Source of the DNA: Fredinandcohnia onubensis | Lineage (GTDB): Bacteria > Bacillota > Bacilli > Bacillales > Bacillaceae_L | DNA length: 64,000 nucleotides | Assembly: GCF_031181385.1 (NCBI RefSeq) | Contig: NZ_JAPSKV010000004.1 | Location: 303,380-367,379, forward strand | Direction: 5' to 3' | Shown: one piece after another, positions 17,418-23,869 of the stretch | Numbering within the stretch: the stretch's first letter is position 1 | Layout: the number at the start of each line of letters is the position of its first letter | Position numbers and translations under genes: made by a program | The notes under the pieces: model-generated | The model's database searches: none | Told to the model about the DNA's origin: nothing | What the model saw: only the letters and a program-made list of their open reading frames with translations

Positions 17418-18122
17418 ATGAAGATAGCAATTATCGGAGCAATGGATGAAGAAGTAGGAATTTTAAGAGAGAAAATTGAAAATAGACAGGAAACCACAGT
17501 TGCCGAAAGTGTTTTTTATAATGGGACGCTGAATGGGTATGATGTTATTTTATTAAAATCAGGAATTGGAAAAGTGAATGCAGCAATATCTACAACTATT
17601 TTATTACAGCAATTTAAACCAGATTATGTTGTAAATACAGGCTCTGCAGGCGGTCATTTAAAAACGCTTAATGTAGGCGATATCGTAATTTCTTCAGAAG
17701 TAAGACATCATGATGTGGATGTGACTGCTTTTAACTATGAATATGGGCAAGTTCCTGGATTGCCAGCAGCATTTAAAGCGGATGAAAAGCTAATAAAATT
17801 AGCCGAAAAAAGTGCTGAAGGAATCACAGATATACAGGTTGTGACTGGATTGATTGCAACAGGTGACTCCTTCATGAATGATCCAGAGCGAGTATCATTT
17901 GTAAGTCAAAAGTTCGGTGATTTATATGCTGTAGAGATGGAAGCAGCGGCTGTAGCGCAAGTTTGTCATCAATTTAAAGTACCATTTGTAGTAATTCGTG
18001 CCTTATCAGATATCGCAGGTAAAGAATCTGATGTATCGTTTGAACAATTCCTACAAACTGCAGCAGCACATTCATCAGACGTAGTTGAAAAAATGGTAGA
18101 ACAAATTAATAAGTCTTTGTAA
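17418..18122 (+). CDS. mtnN: 5'-methylthioadenosine/S-adenosylhomocysteine nucleosidase
   Basis: 234 residues, full length. [14 protein letters not shown] start, VNTGSAGG, and the catalytic/substrate region [12 protein letters not shown] and RALSDIAG. It removes adenine from SAH (giving S-ribosylhomocysteine) and MTA. In this operon it feeds homocysteine production, used by MccA and MccB next. Confidence 0.98.
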
Positions 18123-18137
18123 ACGGAGTGAATTAAA

Positions 18138-19061
18138 ATGCAAGTGTATCAAAATGTTCACGGGCTTATCGGAAATACCCCGATCGTTGAGATTACGAAA
18201 TTTCCATTACCTAATGGTGTTCGTCTTTTTGCAAAGCTCGAATTCTTTAATCCAGGCGGAAGTATAAAAGATCGTTTAGGGGTTGAACTTCTTCAAGAAG
18301 CCTTTGCTACAGGTCAGTTAACCGAAGGAGGAACGATTATTGAGCCTACTGCCGGCAATACTGGGATTGGACTTGCACTTGCTGCAATTAATCGAAATGT
18401 AAATGTGATTCTTTGTGTTCCTGAAAAGTTCTCAGTTGAAAAACAAGAATTGATGAAGGCGTTAGGAGCGACTATCGTCAATACGCCAACAGAGGCAGGT
18501 ATGACGGGTGCGATTGAAAAGGCAAAAGAGCTTCTTAATGAAATTCCAAATTCCTATTGTCCACAGCAATTCGCAAACCCAGCGAACCCTGAAACCTACT
18601 ATAAAACAATTGGACCCGAGATCTGGGAACAGCTTGAAGGACAATTAGATATTTTTGTAGCGGGAGCAGGTACTGGTGGTACTTTTATGGGGACTGCTAA
18701 GTATTTAAAGGAAAAGAAAAAGTCTATAAAGACCGTTATCGTTGAACCAGAGGGCTCGATCCTAAATGGCGGTGAATCAGGTCCACATAAAACGGAAGGT
18801 ATTGGAATGGAATTTCTTCCAGGATATATGGATACATCCTATTTTGACTCGATTCATACTGTATCTGATGAGGACGCATTCCGTCGAGTGAGTGAAATAG
18901 CACGTACGGAGGGGCTTCTTGTCGGCAGTTCTTCAGGGGCAGCCCTTCATGCCGCTCTTTTAGAGTCAGAAAGGGCACAACCAGGATCACATATTCTAGT
19001 CATTTTTCCTGACAGTAGTGAACGCTATTTAAGTAAAAAAATATATCAAGGTGGGATTTAA
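18138..19061 (+). CDS. mccA: Cystathionine beta-synthase / O-acetylserine-dependent (MccA, YrhA)
   Basis: 307 residues, PLP fold type II: FFNPGGSIKDRLG carries the PLP lysine, EPTAGNTGIGLA the phosphate-side loop, and GAGTGGTFMG the PLP phosphate cradle. In B. subtilis MccA makes cystathionine from homocysteine and O-acetylserine. Ribosome binding site ACGGAGTGA. Two bases separate it from mccB. Confidence 0.95.
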   Translation: MQVYQNVHGLIGNTPIVEITKFPLPNGVRLFAKLEFFNPGGSIKDRLGVELLQEAFATGQLTEGGTIIEPTAGNTGIGLALAAINRNVNVILCVPEKFSVEKQELMKALGATIVNTPTEAGMTGAIEKAKELLNEIPNSYCPQQFANPANPETYYKTIGPEIWEQLEGQLDIFVAGAGTGGTFMGTAKYLKEKKKSIKTVIVEPEGSILNGGESGPHKTEGIGMEFLPGYMDTSYFDSIHTVSDEDAFRRVSEIARTEGLLVGSSSGAALHAALLESERAQPGSHILVIFPDSSERYLSKKIYQGGI

Positions 19062-19063
19062 GA

Positions 19064-20197
19064 ATGAAACGTAAAACATTGCTTATTCATGGGGGAGTTG
19101 GCGAGGATCCACAGACAGGTGCGGTTAATACGCCTATCTACCAGGTTAGCACTTATAAACAAGAAGGTATCGGAGGCCATAAAGGCTTTGAATATTCACG
19201 AACTGGAAATCCAACCAGACATGCACTAGAAGAATTAATCAAGGACATTGAAGGTGGAGAAAGAGGATTTGCATTTGGCTCAGGTATGGCTGCAATCACA
19301 GCTGTAATGATGTTATTTAACAGTGGAGACCATGTCATTTTAACAGACGATGTGTACGGTGGAACATATCGCATAATGACAAAGGTTCTTAACCGATTAG
19401 GTATTGATTCAACCTTTGTTGATACAAGCAATCTAGACAATATTGAAGGTGAGATTCGTGAAAATACAAGAGCAATTTACATCGAATCTCCGACAAATCC
19501 TTTATTAAAAATTACCGACATTAAAGGGGCTTCAGAAATTGCAAAGAAACATAATCTCTTAACTATTGTTGATAACACGTTTAGTACACCATATTGGCAA
19601 ACACCAATTGCTCTTGGTGCTGATATTGTCTTACACAGTGCTACCAAATATATTGGCGGTCATAGCGATGTAGTGGCTGGTCTTGCGGTTGTTAACTCTG
19701 CTAAGCTAGGTGAAGAATTGCATTTCGTTCAAAACTCAACTGGTGGTGTACTTGGTCCTCAGGATTCCTGGTTATTAATTCGTGGGATTCGTACACTTGG
19801 AGTACGGATGGAAGAGCATGAGGACAATACGAAGAAAATTGTCGAGTTCCTTCAAAACCATCCAGCAGTTAAAAAGGTATACTATCCTGGGATTGAATCA
19901 CATCCAAATCACGCCATCGCCAAAGAACAAGCAAAAGGATTTGGTGGAATGGTGTCCTTTGATGTTGGGAGTGAAGAAAATGCAGATAAGCTATTAAGTA
20001 AAGTTAAATACTTCACCTTAGCGGAAAGTTTAGGGGCAGTCGAAAGCTTAATTTCCGTGCCAGGTAAAATGACCCACGCCTCCATTCCAGCAGATCGCCG
20101 CGCGGAATTAGGCATTGGAGATGGGTTAGTACGTATTTCTGTTGGATTAGAAGATGTTGAAGACCTAATTGAAGACCTCGAACAAGGCTTACAGTAA
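19064..20197 (+). CDS. mccB: Cystathionine gamma-lyase (MccB, YrhB)
   Basis: 377 residues of the Cys/Met metabolism PLP family: EYSRTGNPTRHALE near the N-terminus, IVDNTFSTPYWQ, and the PLP-lysine motif HSATKYIGGHSDVVAG. It cleaves cystathionine to cysteine, 2-oxobutyrate and ammonia and can release H2S, completing homocysteine-to-cysteine conversion with MccA. Confidence 0.96.
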   Translation: MKRKTLLIHGGVGEDPQTGAVNTPIYQVSTYKQEGIGGHKGFEYSRTGNPTRHALEELIKDIEGGERGFAFGSGMAAITAVMMLFNSGDHVILTDDVYGGTYRIMTKVLNRLGIDSTFVDTSNLDNIEGEIRENTRAIYIESPTNPLLKITDIKGASEIAKKHNLLTIVDNTFSTPYWQTPIALGADIVLHSATKYIGGHSDVVAGLAVVNSAKLGEELHFVQNSTGGVLGPQDSWLLIRGIRTLGVRMEEHEDNTKKIVEFLQNHPAVKKVYYPGIESHPNHAIAKEQAKGFGGMVSFDVGSEENADKLLSKVKYFTLAESLGAVESLISVPGKMTHASIPADRRAELGIGDGLVRISVGLEDVEDLIEDLEQGLQ

Positions 20198-20204
20198 AAA
20201 GTAA

Positions 20205-20242
20205 ATCTCTGGCCCTTTTAATTATGGGCTAGAGGTTTTTTT
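20205..20242 (+). terminator. Intrinsic terminator after mccB
   Basis: CTCTGGCCC / GGGCTAGAG stem and seven T; yrhC downstream may be reached by read-through or its own promoter. Confidence 0.85.
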
Positions 20243-20334
20243 GAGGGAATAAAACTGCTAAAATTTACATTCCTAACAACCTATCAAGCTATGATATTAT
20301 AGGGTAGAAGTTTAATAATTTGGTAGGTGGAGAC

Positions 20335-20568
20335 ATGATGGAACAAAATAAACAAATGAATAACCTGCGTACTAAAGTTACAGACTACACAAACTTCGGA
20401 TATATCCTTCTTGTTTTAAGTGTATTTTTATATATCGGTGTTATCATTCCGGAGGGACGTTCTCCGTTTCAACTATATACAATAATGGGTTCTACACTCA
20501 TTCTCTTAAGCTTGTCATTTACATTTTTTATCTTAGTTATTAAATATAAAAAACAACTTGAAGATTAA
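20335..20568 (+). CDS. yrhC: YrhC-like small membrane protein
   Basis: 77 residues with two membrane helices (FGYILLVLSVFLYIGVII and MGSTLILLSLSFTFFILVI) and a basic tail. Matches YrhC in size, topology and position after mccB. GTAGGTGGAG lies just upstream; either ATG 20335 or 20338 may be the start. Function unknown. Confidence 0.82.
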   Translation: MMEQNKQMNNLRTKVTDYTNFGYILLVLSVFLYIGVIIPEGRSPFQLYTIMGSTLILLSLSFTFFILVIKYKKQLED

Positions 20569-20570
20569 TA

Positions 20571-20607
20571 GTCCTTCACCTAAATTTTTGGTGAAGGAAT
20601 TTTTTTG
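20571..20607 (+). terminator. Intrinsic terminator after yrhC
   Basis: CCTTCACC / GGTGAAGG stem followed by AA and seven T. Confidence 0.92.
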
Positions 20608-20617
20608 CAAAAAAGTG

Positions 20618-20646
20618 TTTACATGTATACCTGAATTGGTTATAAT
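20618..20646 (+). promoter_or_regulatory. Strong sigma-A-type promoter of the tiny-ORF locus
   Basis: TTTACA (20618-20623) and TATAAT (20641-20646) with a 17-bp spacer; it drives the short ORF at 20691 and possibly yrzI. Confidence 0.85.
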
Positions 20647-20690
20647 TACCACAGTAGGAAAAAATTAATGATAAAAGGAGGTCGAATAAA

Positions 20691-20774
20691 ATGATTAAAT
20701 CTAAAGCTATTGCTGCAAATATGACAACTTCATATGAAAAAGTCTATTCGACCAAACCGGTGATTAATTTTTAA
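20691..20774 (+). CDS. 27-residue ORF with strong ribosome binding site, unknown
   Basis: Encodes MIKSKAIAANMTTSY... ending KPVINF. AAAAGGAGGTCG lies at optimal distance and a near-consensus promoter is 45 bp upstream, so translation is likely. GGTCGAATA (20680-20688), overlapping the Shine-Dalgarno, is perfectly complementary to TATTCGACC (20745-20753) inside the ORF. No recognised family. It may be a leader peptide or a micro-protein. Confidence 0.6.
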   Translation: MIKSKAIAANMTTSYEKVYSTKPVINF

Positions 20775-20796
20775 TTTTATTTGATACGTTAATTAT

Positions 20797-20871
20797 GCCA
20801 CAGGTGGAATAGTACGCCTGTGGCTTTGTTATGCCTTTAACGCCACAGGACTCGTATGCCTGTGGCCTTTT
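20797..20871 (+). terminator. Two tandem hairpins with identical stems
   Basis: GCCACAGG / CCTGTGGC occurs twice: 20797-20804 with 20817-20824, and 20842-20849 with 20859-20866. Each is followed by a T-rich stretch (TTTGTT; CTTTTTG). The four arms are interchangeable, so alternative pairings exist. Either a double terminator or a switch before yrzI. Confidence 0.8.
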
Positions 20872-20936
20872 TGTGTCAATTTTTCCTACACAAATTTTTA
20901 GATGTATAGCTAACAAACAAAGGAGGTGAGTAAATA

Positions 20937-21077
20937 ATGACCATCAATCTATTCTTTTTAACAATCTCAATTTCAAAACGTCAAAAATCTATCGAAGAAT
21001 ATGTACATGAGGAAAAAGTCAATAAACATATGGAAGAAATGAAGGAACGCCAATATTCAATGATGCGCTTATTTTAA
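20937..21077 (+). CDS. yrzI: YrzI family small protein
   Basis: 46 residues: hydrophobic start TINLFFLTISIS, then a charged helix ending in MKERQYSMMRLF. This matches the YrzI family of Bacillus micro-proteins. Perfect AAGGAGGTGAG ribosome binding site 7 bases before the ATG. Function unknown. It is the second of several tiny ORFs in this interval. Confidence 0.8.
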   Translation: MTINLFFLTISISKRQKSIEEYVHEEKVNKHMEEMKERQYSMMRLF

Positions 21078-21104
21078 TCAACAAAACAAAAATAGGAAAG
21101 GGGA

Positions 21105-21173
21105 ATGATGAAAATGTTAATGAGAATTTGTCCGATTGTAGCTTGGTTATCTGTGGAGAAGGATTCCACCTAA
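21105..21173 (+). CDS. 22-residue ORF, unknown
   Basis: Begins MMKMLMRICPIVAWLS and ends EKDST. AGGAAAGGGG lies just upstream of a double ATG. Hydrophobic centre with one Cys. No family recognised; support is the ribosome binding site and its place in a row of similar tiny ORFs. Confidence 0.45.
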   Translation: MMKMLMRICPIVAWLSVEKDST

Positions 21174-21202
21174 CGTACTAAAAATCATAGGAGGAGTTTC
21201 GG

Positions 21203-21262
21203 ATGCTTTCGGTACATGTACTGATATTTACCATTTTATTTTCAAAGAAAAATAAACAATAA
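21203..21262 (+). CDS. 19-residue hydrophobic ORF, unknown
   Basis: MLSVHVLIFTILFSKKNKQ: a short hydrophobic helix with a basic tail, similar in plan to the N-terminus of YrzI. Ribosome binding site AGGAGG at good distance. It ends just before a strong terminator, supporting that it is in the transcribed unit. Confidence 0.5.
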   Translation: MLSVHVLIFTILFSKKNKQ

Positions 21263-21268
21263 ATTGAA

Positions 21269-21297
21269 AGGAGCGCCCATGCTAGGCGCTCCTTTTT
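21269..21297 (+). terminator. Intrinsic terminator closing the tiny-ORF locus
   Basis: GGAGCGCC / GGCGCTCC stem, 7-base loop, then five T. Confidence 0.92.
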
Positions 21298-21415
21298 CCT
21301 GCCTTAATTTTGTCAAATTTCTTTAACACAATGTTCAAAACTGGATAACGTTTACACAGTTCGTAAGTGATAAAGTAAAAGTAAGAAATACATCTCTTTA
21401 TGGAGGTTGATGGAT

Positions 21416-21496
21416 ATGTTTATGATCGTTATGGGTCTTGTTATTACAGCTGTTATTGCTATTATTATTGGAACAGAGGTAAGTGTAGAGTTATAG
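21416..21496 (+). CDS. 26-residue single-helix membrane peptide ORF, unknown
   Basis: Almost entirely one membrane helix (MIVMGLVITAVIAIIIG) with a short TEVSVEL tail. GGAGGT lies 8 bases before the ATG, and a terminator follows, so it looks like a separate small gene. The plan resembles small hydrophobic Bacillus peptides such as SpoVM-class or type I toxin-like peptides, but no specific match is claimed. Confidence 0.5.
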   Translation: MFMIVMGLVITAVIAIIIGTEVSVEL

Positions 21497-21517
21497 GATA
21501 ATAAATAAGATAAGAAA

Positions 21518-21548
21518 AGGGTGAACTGCATGACCAGCAGTCCACCCT
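21518..21548. terminator. Terminator shared by the tiny ORF (+) and sigK (-)
   Basis: AGGGTG(a)ACTGC / GCAGT(c)CACCCT stem between convergent genes, followed by ATTTTTAT on the plus strand and preceded by A-rich sequence that gives T on the minus strand. Confidence 0.85.
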
Positions 21549-21552
21549 ATTT

Positions 21553-22266
21553 TTATGTCCTTCTTTTTTCTTTTTCTGCGCGATAAAATTCATGGAACAT
21601 TTTCATTAACGCACGTTTTTCAATTCGTGAGACATAGCTTCTTGAGATACCAAGCTCTTTTGCAATTTCACGCTGTGTTTTTTCCTTCTTTAAATCAAGT
21701 CCGAACCTACCCACAATTACTTCCTTTTCCCGGTCATCGAGGACATCAATGTATTCTTTGATCTTCTCAAGCTCCATATTTAATTGAATGGTTTCAATCA
21801 CATCTTCCGTTTCAGACTTCAACACATCAATTAGACTAATTTCATTTCCTTCTTTATCCTGGCCAATTGGATCATGAAGGGAAACATCCTTTTTTGTCTT
21901 TTTTAGAGCTCGCAAATGCATTAGAATTTCATTTTCAATACATCTTGCTGCATACGTAGCAAGTTTTGTTCCTTTTCCTTGTGAATAGCTTTCGATTGCC
22001 TTAATCAAACCGATCGTCCCAATTGAAATAAGATCCTCTGTGTCCTCACCTGTGTTTTCGAATTTTTTTACTATATGAGCAACTAACCGTAGATTATGTT
22101 CAATTAACACATTCCGAGCATGTTCATTTCCCTCGGCCAACAATTGTAAGTATTTCTTCTCTTCAGAAGATGATAACGGTTGAGGAAAAGCATTGTTTTT
22201 TACATAGGATACTAAAAATAATAATTCTTTTACAAAATAGCCTAATGCTGCTAAAAGTCCAGACAT
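21553..22266 (-). CDS. sigK: RNA polymerase sporulation sigma factor sigma-K (pro-form, intact gene)
   Basis: 237 residues. The first 20 ([19 protein letters not shown]) form the membrane-associated pro-sequence; SpoIVFB is expected to cut before [10 protein letters not shown]. Region 2 ([32 protein letters not shown], quoted in part) and region 4 with helix-turn-helix [23 protein letters not shown] are complete. Sigma-K directs late mother-cell transcription. In B. subtilis the gene is split by the skin element; here it is continuous, so no excision is needed. Confidence 0.98.
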
Positions 22267-22291
22267 TCGCTCACCTCCACATATATCGTAG

Positions 22292-22304
22292 TGTATGTAT
22301 GCAT
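22292..22304 (-). promoter_or_regulatory. Candidate sigma-E/sigma-K -10 element of sigK
   Basis: On the minus strand GCATACATACAC holds CATACATA, close to the CATACAnT -10 of sigma-E promoters, about 30 bp before the GGAGGTGAG ribosome binding site. No clear -35 was seen, in line with activator (SpoIIID) dependence known in B. subtilis. Confidence 0.4.
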
Positions 22305-22384
22305 ATCCATTACACTACTACCCTAGGCATTTGCCCATTACTTAATGTTATGTAGGAAGTAGCTTCCTTGTGTCTGTCCAATGT

Positions 22385-22432
22385 AAAAAAGCTGATGATA
22401 GTACAAAAGACGATCTTTTATACACCAACAGC
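22385..22432 (-). terminator. Terminator of the ger operon (minus strand)
   Basis: Read on the minus strand GCTG...CAGC encloses GGTGTA/TACTATC-like and AAAGA/TCTTT pairs and is followed by six T. Confidence 0.8.
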
Positions 22433-22450
22433 CCTAACAATAAATTTAAT

Positions 22451-22609
22451 TTATTTTAAGATTGTAAAAAAAGGTCCAATAGCTATGATAATAGCTAATC
22501 CAAATACAAGAATGGAACCCGATTTGTTTTTATCCTTCCAGAGGGAAACGGAAAACAATACTGTATAGAGAAACATCATTATCAACAACAAATATGTTAT
22601 TGCGGTCAT
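22451..22609 (-). CDS. Small two-helix protein, germination receptor D-type subunit
   Basis: 52 residues with two membrane helices (YLLLIMMFLYTVLFSVSL and ILVFGLAIIIAIGPFF) joined by a charged loop WKDKNKSG. ATG lies 3 bases after the gerC-type gene stop, with AAGGG inside that gene's end as ribosome binding site. Small ORFs of this kind beside ger operons are the D proteins reported to modulate spore germination in B. subtilis and B. megaterium. Assignment is by position, size and topology. Confidence 0.7.
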   Translation of the reverse strand: MTAITYLLLIMMFLYTVLFSVSLWKDKNKSGSILVFGLAIIIAIGPFFTILK

Positions 22610-22612
22610 ACG

Positions 22613-23869
22613 TTAGTCCCTTATCCTTTCGTATGTTGGTAATTCAGATTGTCGCCCAAATTCTCCAAATGTGATATCGACACTAACCCTAATATCTGCT
22701 TCAGGATAAGATTTCATCCAATCGTAGTTCTCCCACTCTGGTATGGTTAAGAATTGTTTTCTTGCTGTAAGTGAAAAGCCAAAGAGGTCTGCTTTAAACT
22801 CCTCTTGGCTACGTTTAACTAGATCATTTATTCTTGTTTCGAAGCCTTTAATGATATGTTCTTTCAATTCATTTCTTTTCTCTTCTTCATCTGCATAATT
22901 GACCATACTGTGATCTGTTAGAATCTCAGCTTGTATTGGAACCTTCACCATAATCTTTGGAGCACTCTTCGATACATCAATATTAATTTGTGGTGCTTTT
23001 AGCTGTGAAAATCGTGCAGTGATAAAAAAGTCTTTCAAAAAAGGATCAGGCATAGAAACTAAAAAGCTTGGTTTATCCCTCCACTTGTTTAACATTTTAG
23101 AAATCCGAGTCTCTTGCACAGATAATTTTCCAATCATTTGTCCCTCTTTAAAGACTGCTGAACCAAGAAATTGGGCAGGATTCGTATTTCCGGTTACCTT
23201 CATCTTTCCAGCAATTAATTCTTCATCAATATTTTTCTGTGCTATATTTTCATCCTCATCAGTTGTAGCATAGGCAGTAGAAAATAGCTCTGCATCTCCT
23301 TCGGTTATTCTAAAGAAGTTGTGCATTTCTGAATCTGGAATTAAGCCGATTTCAGTTGCGTTATCAAAGATTACTTCAAAGTATTCATGCCTTCTTGTTT
23401 CTAGTTTCGGTTTATTGTTTTCAATAAATGTACTTGCATCTTCCTTCGTAACGATGATTTTTGTATCACGTCTAATTTCACGGTCTTTTGTAGCATCATA
23501 GATCCAGCGAACAAATTTTTCATCTTTCGCTAGTTTCTCTGAAACTGCAAAGAAGTCCAATATGTCATATGTAATGGACTTTGCTATCACAGCGTTTGCG
23601 ATGTCTTGAGATTCAATGAAACTTGATGAAGTAAACGAAATAATTTCATGAGTTGGTTCATTTCCACCACCACCTTGTTGTGTTGAACCCGCTTCTGGAT
23701 TTGATATTAAATAAGTAACTTTTAAAAAACCTTCAGTTTCTGACTTGTCTAAACCTATCCCTAATACATAAGCCCTTTGATCAATCTCCTGCAAATCCCA
23801 GCATCCAACTAGGAATAATAAAGTAGAAAATATAAATAAAAATCTACTTATTTTGGCTCGTTTTTTCAT
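22613..23869 (-). CDS. Spore germination receptor C subunit (GerAC family lipoprotein)
   Basis: 418 residues; lipoprotein signal peptide with lipobox LFLVGC (Cys ~23) followed by WDLQEIDQRAYVLGIGLD, the classic GerAC N-terminus. The rest is the three-domain Ger(x)C fold, anchored outside the spore inner membrane. Overlaps the B subunit gene by 26 bases. Germinant specificity cannot be read from sequence. Confidence 0.95.
   Translation of the reverse strand: MKKRAKISRFLFIFSTLLFLVGCWDLQEIDQRAYVLGIGLDKSETEGFLKVTYLISNPEAGSTQQGGGGNEPTHEIISFTSSSFIESQDIANAVIAKSITYDILDFFAVSEKLAKDEKFVRWIYDATKDREIRRDTKIIVTKEDASTFIENNKPKLETRRHEYFEVIFDNATEIGLIPDSEMHNFFRITEGDAELFSTAYATTDEDENIAQKNIDEELIAGKMKVTGNTNPAQFLGSAVFKEGQMIGKLSVQETRISKMLNKWRDKPSFLVSMPDPFLKDFFITARFSQLKAPQINIDVSKSAPKIMVKVPIQAEILTDHSMVNYADEEEKRNELKEHIIKGFETRINDLVKRSQEEFKADLFGFSLTARKQFLTIPEWENYDWMKSYPEADIRVSVDITFGEFGRQSELPTYERIRD

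Follow-up and report, generated by a model that had tools for sequence, protein, structure and literature searches.

A predicted ribosome-sensing leader before the yrzI micro-protein operon of Fredinandcohnia onubensis

We analyzed a window of 64,000 nucleotides (nt) from Fredinandcohnia onubensis (contig NZ_JAPSKV010000004.1, positions 303,380 to 367,379 of the forward strand; positions below count from its first letter), in which four small open reading frames (ORFs) cluster around yrzI. The first of them, ORF1, probably serves as the translated leader in a conserved RNA switch, a predicted ribosome-sensing transcription attenuator placed before a micro-protein operon of yrzI, an S1025-like ORF (ORF3) and a YrzI-like ORF (ORF4). 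The Shine-Dalgarno (SD) sequence of ORF1 (SD1) is complementary to a segment inside ORF1 (the anti-SD). Of two T-run hairpins (T1 and T2), the first has a loop to which the anti-SD is also complementary, and the arms of T1 and T2 are interchangeable; cognate partners pair better than exchanged ones. For the cluster, an earlier note on this DNA, made from the sequence without database searches, had considered a single membrane-associated system of micro-proteins, a set of small toxins, and a regulatory leader with effectors behind it. The last fits best, given an unconstrained ORF1 and covariation of the RNA, and a membrane system of four micro-proteins is disfavored.

Alternative pairings in the ORF1 leader

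The peptide encoded by ORF1 is unconstrained, as judged from a ratio of nonsynonymous to synonymous changes (pN/pS) of 1.24 over nine loci of the genus. The conserved letters of ORF1, ATTCGACC and its variants, lie inside the ORF in 70 of 70 leaders and occupy all three frames relative to the start codon (53, 9 and 8 leaders), covarying as RNA. On these two results, ORF1 was rejected as a conserved micro-protein. The segment ATTCGACC is the reverse complement of the SD1 context GGTCGAAT, and in most leaders this anti-SD begins 40-72 nt after the start codon of ORF1.

Among 34 aligned leaders, 94.4% of the cells are paired in SD1:anti-SD, 87.1% in anti-SD:T1 loop and 97.1% in T1. Moving the whole structures by 1-3 columns as a control lowered the paired fraction to 31-54%. 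With diverged leaders added (36 leaders), both sides have changed in 8 of the 9 SD1:anti-SD pairs. The leader folds with a z-score of -4.89, and an equally good fold was found in none of 200 shuffles. In locus L016, the covariation can be followed by eye through all three partners: SD GGTTGAAC, anti-SD GTTCAACC and T1 loop GGTTGAACG.

The SD context is copied by the loop of T1 and not by that of T2. Pairing energies were compared in 70 unique leaders out of 91 with two terminators, which come from the 112 of 182 loci with an SD1/anti-SD match (the 182 loci include some genomes twice; 170 are unique). The anti-SD pairs with its cognate T1 loop at -9.43 vs -7.25 (standard deviation 0.23) for exchanged loops, and none of 5000 permutations did as well. 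With the T2 loop as a control, the cognate pairing is worse than the exchanged one (-3.24 vs -3.87). Coupling is also seen between the arms of the two hairpins, the 3' arm of T1 pairing better with the 5' arm of its own T2 than with exchanged ones (-13.70 vs -11.97, standard deviation 0.22; 0 of 5000). When partial transcripts were folded up to the T1 loop, the anti-SD paired with T1, by the criterion of four or more expected pairs, in 66 of the 70 leaders with SD1 masked and in 23 with SD1 free. Mutually exclusive pairings that involve a terminator are thereby predicted between the ORF1 start and the genes, with support from covariation.

From these predicted pairings and their covariation, we infer attenuation as the mechanism. 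If ORF1 is untranslated, the anti-SD would hold SD1, T1 and T2 would form, and transcription would end before yrzI. A ribosome that sits on SD1, or that is stalled in the first half of ORF1 by a ribosome-targeting antibiotic or a lack of charged tRNA, would mask SD1. The anti-SD could then capture the T1 loop during transcription, upon which the 3' arm of T1, now free, would join the 5' arm of T2, letting the polymerase read into yrzI. If ORF1 is translated freely, the ribosome would cover the anti-SD as well, and the terminators would form. Exclusive pairings set by ribosome position are also found in trp-type attenuators and in the erm and cat leader peptides. In contrast to these, no conserved leader peptide is seen here, and it is SD occupancy that appears to be sensed.

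Two further complementarities were observed in the leader. The probable 5' terminus of the transcript, GTAGGAAAAA (20654-20663), is perfectly complementary to TTTTTCCTAC behind T2 (20880-20889), and this is kept in several relatives of the same genus; it possibly serves 5' protection or a further state of the switch. Additionally, a stretch behind the anti-SD can pair with a stretch before T1 in many leaders (20754-20796 in the window, GGAATGGA with TCCAT or GTGATTAAT with GTTAATTAT). This helix is present in the predicted fold, but its register shifts by eye between leaders, and it was not counted.

Leaders before yrzI and before other genes

The spread of the leader was followed with two covariance models. 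R1 was built from 34 yrzI leaders only, including that of the window; the leaders behind R2 include L217, L219, L220, L221 and L237. Both genome sets searched include the own genome and genomes that trained the models. R1 matches the window leader at 20674-20831 with 126.2 bits (expectation value, E, 5.4e-24). In the own draft genome, this yrzI leader is the sole one found, the next candidate reaching E 0.7. R1 matches occur in 99 of 198 genomes of relatives (44 of 96 genera), and YrzI itself is present in 99 of the 198. Within the order, R2 matched 225 of 396 genomes and 74 of 135 genera. In a search of window positions 18000-23000 with Rfam 15, the three matches obtained were all under the gathering scores; a known Rfam family was rejected, and the leader class is absent from Rfam on this basis.

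R1, trained on yrzI leaders alone, also matched leaders before other genes. Altogether, 32 of the fetched leaders precede something other than a YrzI-like ORF, and in 22 of them this is an ABC exporter: ten are BmrC-like (eight genera), nine are ABC-2 type ATPases with permeases, and three are of another kind (one genus). The remainder comprises three MFS transporters (that of L242 lying 1.8 kb further on), four GNAT-domain ORFs (one genus), one ABC-F protein, one RsgA GTPase and one locus, L223, with nothing clear behind the leader. The L251 gene matches BmrC/YheI at 1.4e-255; the BmrC-like calls rest on library search for L237 and L251 and on shared N-terminal sequence for the other eight. 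Library and PDB searches covered L217, L220, L221, L237, L238, L242, L246, L251, L257 and L266, and the other exporters were assigned by shared sequence. Among the 60 matches listed, 26 were fetched; the 25 stretches fetched earlier comprise seven exporter loci, the unclear L223 and otherwise YrzI-type loci. L224, in which an ORF3-like ORF was the only one seen, stands outside the 32.

The SD letters of leaders before other genes diverge, for example GGTCACGTAA in L221, GGTTACGTTGA in L253 and GTAGGTGAAGTCAT in L257. The SD complement changes along with them; in many leaders, inspection by eye shows the T1-loop copy changing as well. In 29 diverged leaders, the anti-SD pairs with the cognate T1 loop at -8.58 vs -6.07 for exchanged loops (0 of 5000). 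Of 31 leaders entered in this comparison, the rule used gave no T1 in L246 and L253; L223 was not entered, and L262 and L263 are YrzI loci. The 29 counted include the poor leader of L266 and some, such as L221, L256 and L267, whose T1 is dubious by eye.

Leaders before genes of other kinds were observed in L246, L248, L250, L255, L257 and L266, namely before the four GNAT ORFs (a domain search was made for L246 only), the RsgA-type GTPase and the ABC-F gene. It is possible that these are further ribosome-stress genes.

The closest known system is bmrCD of Bacillus subtilis. Passages of PMC4191407 describe an antibiotic-responsive attenuation of bmrCD by the leader ORF bmrB with a terminator, an antiterminator and an anti-antiterminator, in which the leader must be translated for read-through, and ribosome-targeting antibiotics act as inducers. 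By description, the present leader is alike in having a small translated upstream ORF, here led by an SD, together with these three elements, and leaders found by R1 and R2 precede BmrC/YheI-like genes. Conversely, the bmrB terminator lies inside the ORF, whereas here the terminator is doubled, and T1 starts 22 nt behind the ORF1 stop codon. Here, too, the terminator loop mimics the SD of the leader, and the anti-antiterminator is that SD itself. Because T1 lies behind the stop codon, we file the leader as a variant and not as a bmrB leader. As a translated leader, a terminator and ribosome-targeting antibiotics together switch bmrCD, the yrzI leader most likely works like the bmrCD switch. 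In B. subtilis, the mRNA levels of yrzI and bmrCD increase jointly upon depletion of RNase P or RNase Z, when tRNA maturation fails (in a passage of PMC10100781), and also in a whiA mutant (PMC10714963). If the proposal is true, the unexplained anti-antiterminator of bmrB gains a possible role in hiding the leader's own SD, and the covariance model would serve to find leaders of this class before genes for transporters, GNAT proteins and possibly ABC-F proteins.

Several observations weigh against ORF1 being the leader of an attenuator. The anti-SD was picked by its match to SD1, so the SD1:anti-SD energies are biased; the T1-loop tests are free of such a choice. Related rows share descent, and the permutation counts therefore overstate significance and are not probabilities. 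With SD1 masked and the letters of the anti-SD shuffled, T1 is still paired in 272 of 700 folds (39%), a high baseline. The antiterminating pairs are less stable than T1 and T2, both of which persist, with SD1 masked, in the minimum-energy fold of the window leader up to T2. Against completed terminators of this strength, the choice would have to be made kinetically, during transcription. The T1-loop pairing could instead be a pseudoknot with T1 intact. Among 95 yrzI loci (19 of which had trained the model; L111-L116 and L117-L196 were left out), 84 match R1 at E 0.01 and 11 do not. For five of the 32 other genes (GNAT and RsgA), a part in resistance is not evident, and the leader before the ABC-F gene in L266 is poor. 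L023 reaches only E 0.0027 and L028 has no R1 match at 0.01; both have the SD1:anti-SD match, but the loop of their first hairpin has no visible SD mimic. We presume, as a guess, that these two loci belong to the B. subtilis group. In that case, the switch may be absent from the best-studied species.

The main rival, which we consider unlikely, is that the leader is an element of translation or mRNA stability and nothing more, in which SD1:anti-SD tunes ORF1 translation and the life of the mRNA, and T1 and T2 are plain terminators at which most transcripts end early, free of regulated antitermination. The persistence of T1 and T2 in the SD1-masked fold agrees with it, as does the complementarity in this genus between GTAGGAAAAA, the likely 5' end, and TTTTTCCTAC behind T2. 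Altered stability of yrzI mRNA, described in a passage of PMC10100781, could likewise account for the rise of this mRNA, with attenuation unneeded, and so also counts against the switch. Such an element would leave unexplained why SD1 is copied, with covariation, by the T1 loop and not by the T2 loop, as well as the coupled arms of T1 and T2 and the company of drug exporters. A role of the terminated leader in trans, as a small RNA, is improbable. PMC3574147 and PMC4634765 mention, respectively, a 234-nt Hfq-associated RNA between yrzI and yrhG in B. subtilis and a short yrzI-yrhG transcript of FZB42 that was formerly called a small RNA. However, the conserved pairs lie within the leader itself, and the published RNA may cover either side of yrzI.

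The conserved end of ORF3 and Rae1

ORF3 is conserved mainly in its final residues. Its pN/pS is 0.68 over the nine genus loci, and the last nine codons show pN 0.03 and pS 0.14. An ORF ending in [KR]D[STGQ]x-stop was found at most 250 nt behind the last YrzI in 112 of the 170 unique loci, vs 0.4% in shuffles, and residue -4 is Lys in 109 of these 112 ORFs. The codons at this end vary (AAA or AAG, GAT or GAC), and there is free variation in where the ORF starts and how long it is. A hairpin (GTGGAG...TCCAC) was rejected as the sole cause of the conserved end, as it fits 23 loci while others read KDTA, KDTG or KDQV. Since K-D stays as the neighboring letters vary, a coding signal is the more likely explanation. 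The patterns used for ORF3, ORF4 and the exporter ORF described below were composed after viewing the sequences.

By its position, ORF3 is likely the counterpart of S1025. The yrzI (spyTA) operon of B. subtilis, with S1024, S1025 and S1026, likewise has a short ORF with a recurrent C-terminal end after yrzI; it differs if L023 and L028, presumably of the B. subtilis group, represent it, as the SD-mimic loop is not seen there. Rae1 is a ribosome-associated nuclease, and it cleaves with a Lys codon at the cut site. When ORF3 is translated, its Lys codon in the ribosomal A site would be exposed to Rae1, and the mRNA would be cut during translation. The yrzI operon and its link to Rae1 are already known in B. 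subtilis. S1025, which adjoins yrzI, is given as the first characterized substrate of Rae1 in a passage of PMC11780869, and S1026 is placed upstream of yrzI in PMC3498285. A passage of PMC10632193 has seven RNAs chosen as direct Rae1 degradation candidates, including S1025, yrzI, bmrC and bmrD.

A comparable ORF stands between leader and gene at exporter loci. An SD-led short ORF ending in [DE][STGD][GTASD]-stop, in practice [DE][SGD]G, was found in 10 of 19 loci vs 0.2% in shuffles; the 19 are those of the 32 loci that remain when the nine ABC-2 loci, L242, L257, L266 and L223 are left out. It is present in 8 of 10 BmrC-like, 2 of 2 MFS and 0 of 3 other ABC loci, that is, in 10 of 15 exporter loci, and in 0 of 4 GNAT loci. 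Deves and colleagues (2023) reportedly described a cryptic ORF in bmrCD, named bmrX, that is cleaved by Rae1. The exporter ORF resembles bmrX by position only, and its end is akin to the K-D-[ST]-x-stop of ORF3. The likeness of the two ends is observed, and both may be signals for Rae1.

A wider proposal, to which we give even chances, is that SD-decoy attenuators occur throughout the order. In these, the anti-SD would choose between its own SD and the copy in the terminator loop, and so read bare, busy and stalled ribosomes, and a tag ORF ending in [K/x]-[DE]-[STG]-[TAG]-stop would hand the mRNA to Rae1; the whole would form a portable ribosome-stress module for multidrug exporters and YrzI peptides. 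If this is true, the yrzI operon is part of the stalled-ribosome response and shares a switch with drug pumps, and a C-terminal codon signature is predicted for Rae1 targets. In the literature searched, outside of which most subscription papers lay, we did not meet the leader class, the SD-copy loop, its sharing with exporters or the common end of the tag ORF.

Two findings bear against the Rae1 part of the proposal. An ORF with the ORF3 end was not found in 58 of the 170 loci, and Rae1/YacP was not found in the own draft genome (0 of 1). Rae1/YacP is present in 59 of 60 genomes of a set that includes the own genome. SigH is equally without a match over the cut-off in the draft, and a loss of Rae1 in this organism is thus unsupported. 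An assembly gap, presumably around rlmB-yacP-sigH, is the likely cause.

The operon may also be a peptide toxin/antitoxin system of the spyTA type, with YrzI as the toxin and the S1025-type ORF3 as the antidote, which we rate as a real possibility at somewhat below even chances and which is compatible with ORF1 being an attenuating leader. A reference title names the B. subtilis mRNA yrzI (spyTA), which points to a toxin with its antitoxin, and yrzI occurs in 2-5 copies in 45 of the 170 unique loci, 36 of which have an ORF with the ORF3 end behind the last copy. Against it stand the 58 loci lacking such an ORF. In addition, ORF3 differs between loci outside its last residues, a pattern more in keeping with a nuclease or stalling signal than with an antidote binding to YrzI. 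If both apply, the locus would be a ribosome-stress-induced toxin/antidote operon with a built-in shut-off. Tandem yrzI repeats at the same locus were observed in L072, L073, L077, L084 and L169, with five copies in L073.

Micro-proteins and layout of the locus

YrzI and ORF4 are likely genuine micro-proteins, because both are under coding constraint (pN/pS 0.21 and 0.23 over the nine genus loci). YrzI matches PF09501 with 61.1 bits (cut-off 23) and TIGR02413 with 47.2 (cut-off 47.05), and Pfam names it a probable sporulation protein. Over the 170 loci, YrzI was detected by hidden Markov model, and an ORF4-like ORF was found in 73, vs 0.2% in shuffles. By eye, the two share a hydrophobic start and a basic stretch. 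This likeness and their constraint are what a single membrane-associated system of four micro-proteins could draw on, a possibility that we regard as very remote given the unconstrained ORF1 peptide with its conserved letters in three frames, an ORF3 conserved chiefly at its end, and the two T-run hairpins that isolate ORF1 from the remaining ORFs.

Downstream of yrhC (PF14143) follow the promoter, ORF1, two T-run hairpins, yrzI, ORF3, ORF4 and another T-run hairpin (Table 1). The earlier note had described most of this layout correctly: its four small ORFs of 27, 46, 22 and 19 codons, its near-consensus promoter (the best of our scan) and its shared terminator are all present, the last with TTTTT on the + strand. 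It had missed the two tandem hairpins between ORF1 and yrzI. Its statement that only the 46-residue ORF belongs to a recognized family agrees with the searches, which ORF4 was too short to enter. A strong SD, claimed for each ORF, is present in three of the four, the 22-codon ORF having a weak AAAGGGG. The ORFs other than yrzI, whose conservation in close relatives it had put to question, are kept in the nine genus loci; the substitution ratios it had suggested as a check indicate coding constraint for YrzI and ORF4, none for ORF1, and for ORF3 mainly at the end.

Table 1. Features of the yrzI locus (positions in the window)
Feature	Position	Strand	Remarks
Promoter, TTTACA-N17-TATAAT	20618..20646	+	Top match of the promoter scan, 11/12, spacer 17
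SD1, Shine-Dalgarno of ORF1, AAAGGAGGTCGAATA	20674..20688	+	20680-20688 complementary to the anti-SD
ORF1, leader ORF, 27 codons	20691..20774	+	pN/pS 1.24, 9 sequences
Anti-SD CTATTCGACC within ORF1	20744..20753	+	Partner is SD1 or the T1 loop
T1, first hairpin, then T-rich stretch	20797..20824	+	SD1 mimic GGTGGAATAG at 20803-20812
T2, second hairpin and T run	20842..20866	+	5' arm can pair with the 3' arm of T1, the arms being alike
yrzI, 46 residues	20937..21077	+	PF09501, TIGR02413, pN/pS 0.21
ORF3 (22 codons), probably corresponding to S1025 of B. subtilis	21105..21173	+	Position, conserved end
Conserved ORF3 end, V-E-K-D-S-T-stop	21153..21173	+	Lys codon 21159-21161, predicted Rae1 site
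ORF4, 19 codons	21203..21262	+	Like the YrzI N-terminus by eye; pN/pS 0.23
Hairpin, likely operon end	21267..21295	.	T-rich on both sides

Promoter-like matches in general are at chance level (10 vs a shuffle mean of 10.0), and a promoter of similar kind lies at most 75 nt upstream of SD1 in 65 of the 70 unique leaders. A promoter of its own for yrzI was rejected, as the candidate matches at only 9/12 and overlaps the start codon. SD-led ORFs of at least 15 codons number 3 in the stretch, vs a mean of 0.05 and a maximum of 2 in 2000 dinucleotide shuffles. At the operon end, the TTTTT on the + strand starts within the stem, and the scan reported the minus-strand reading only.

A fifth conserved small ORF lies just behind the cluster, at 21416-21496. 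It has 26 codons and encodes a hydrophobic peptide, MFMIVMGLVITAVIAIIIGTEVSVEL, for which Pfam and NCBIfam gave no match. Its pN/pS is 0.07 over six loci, and peptides like it occur near the same place in other families.

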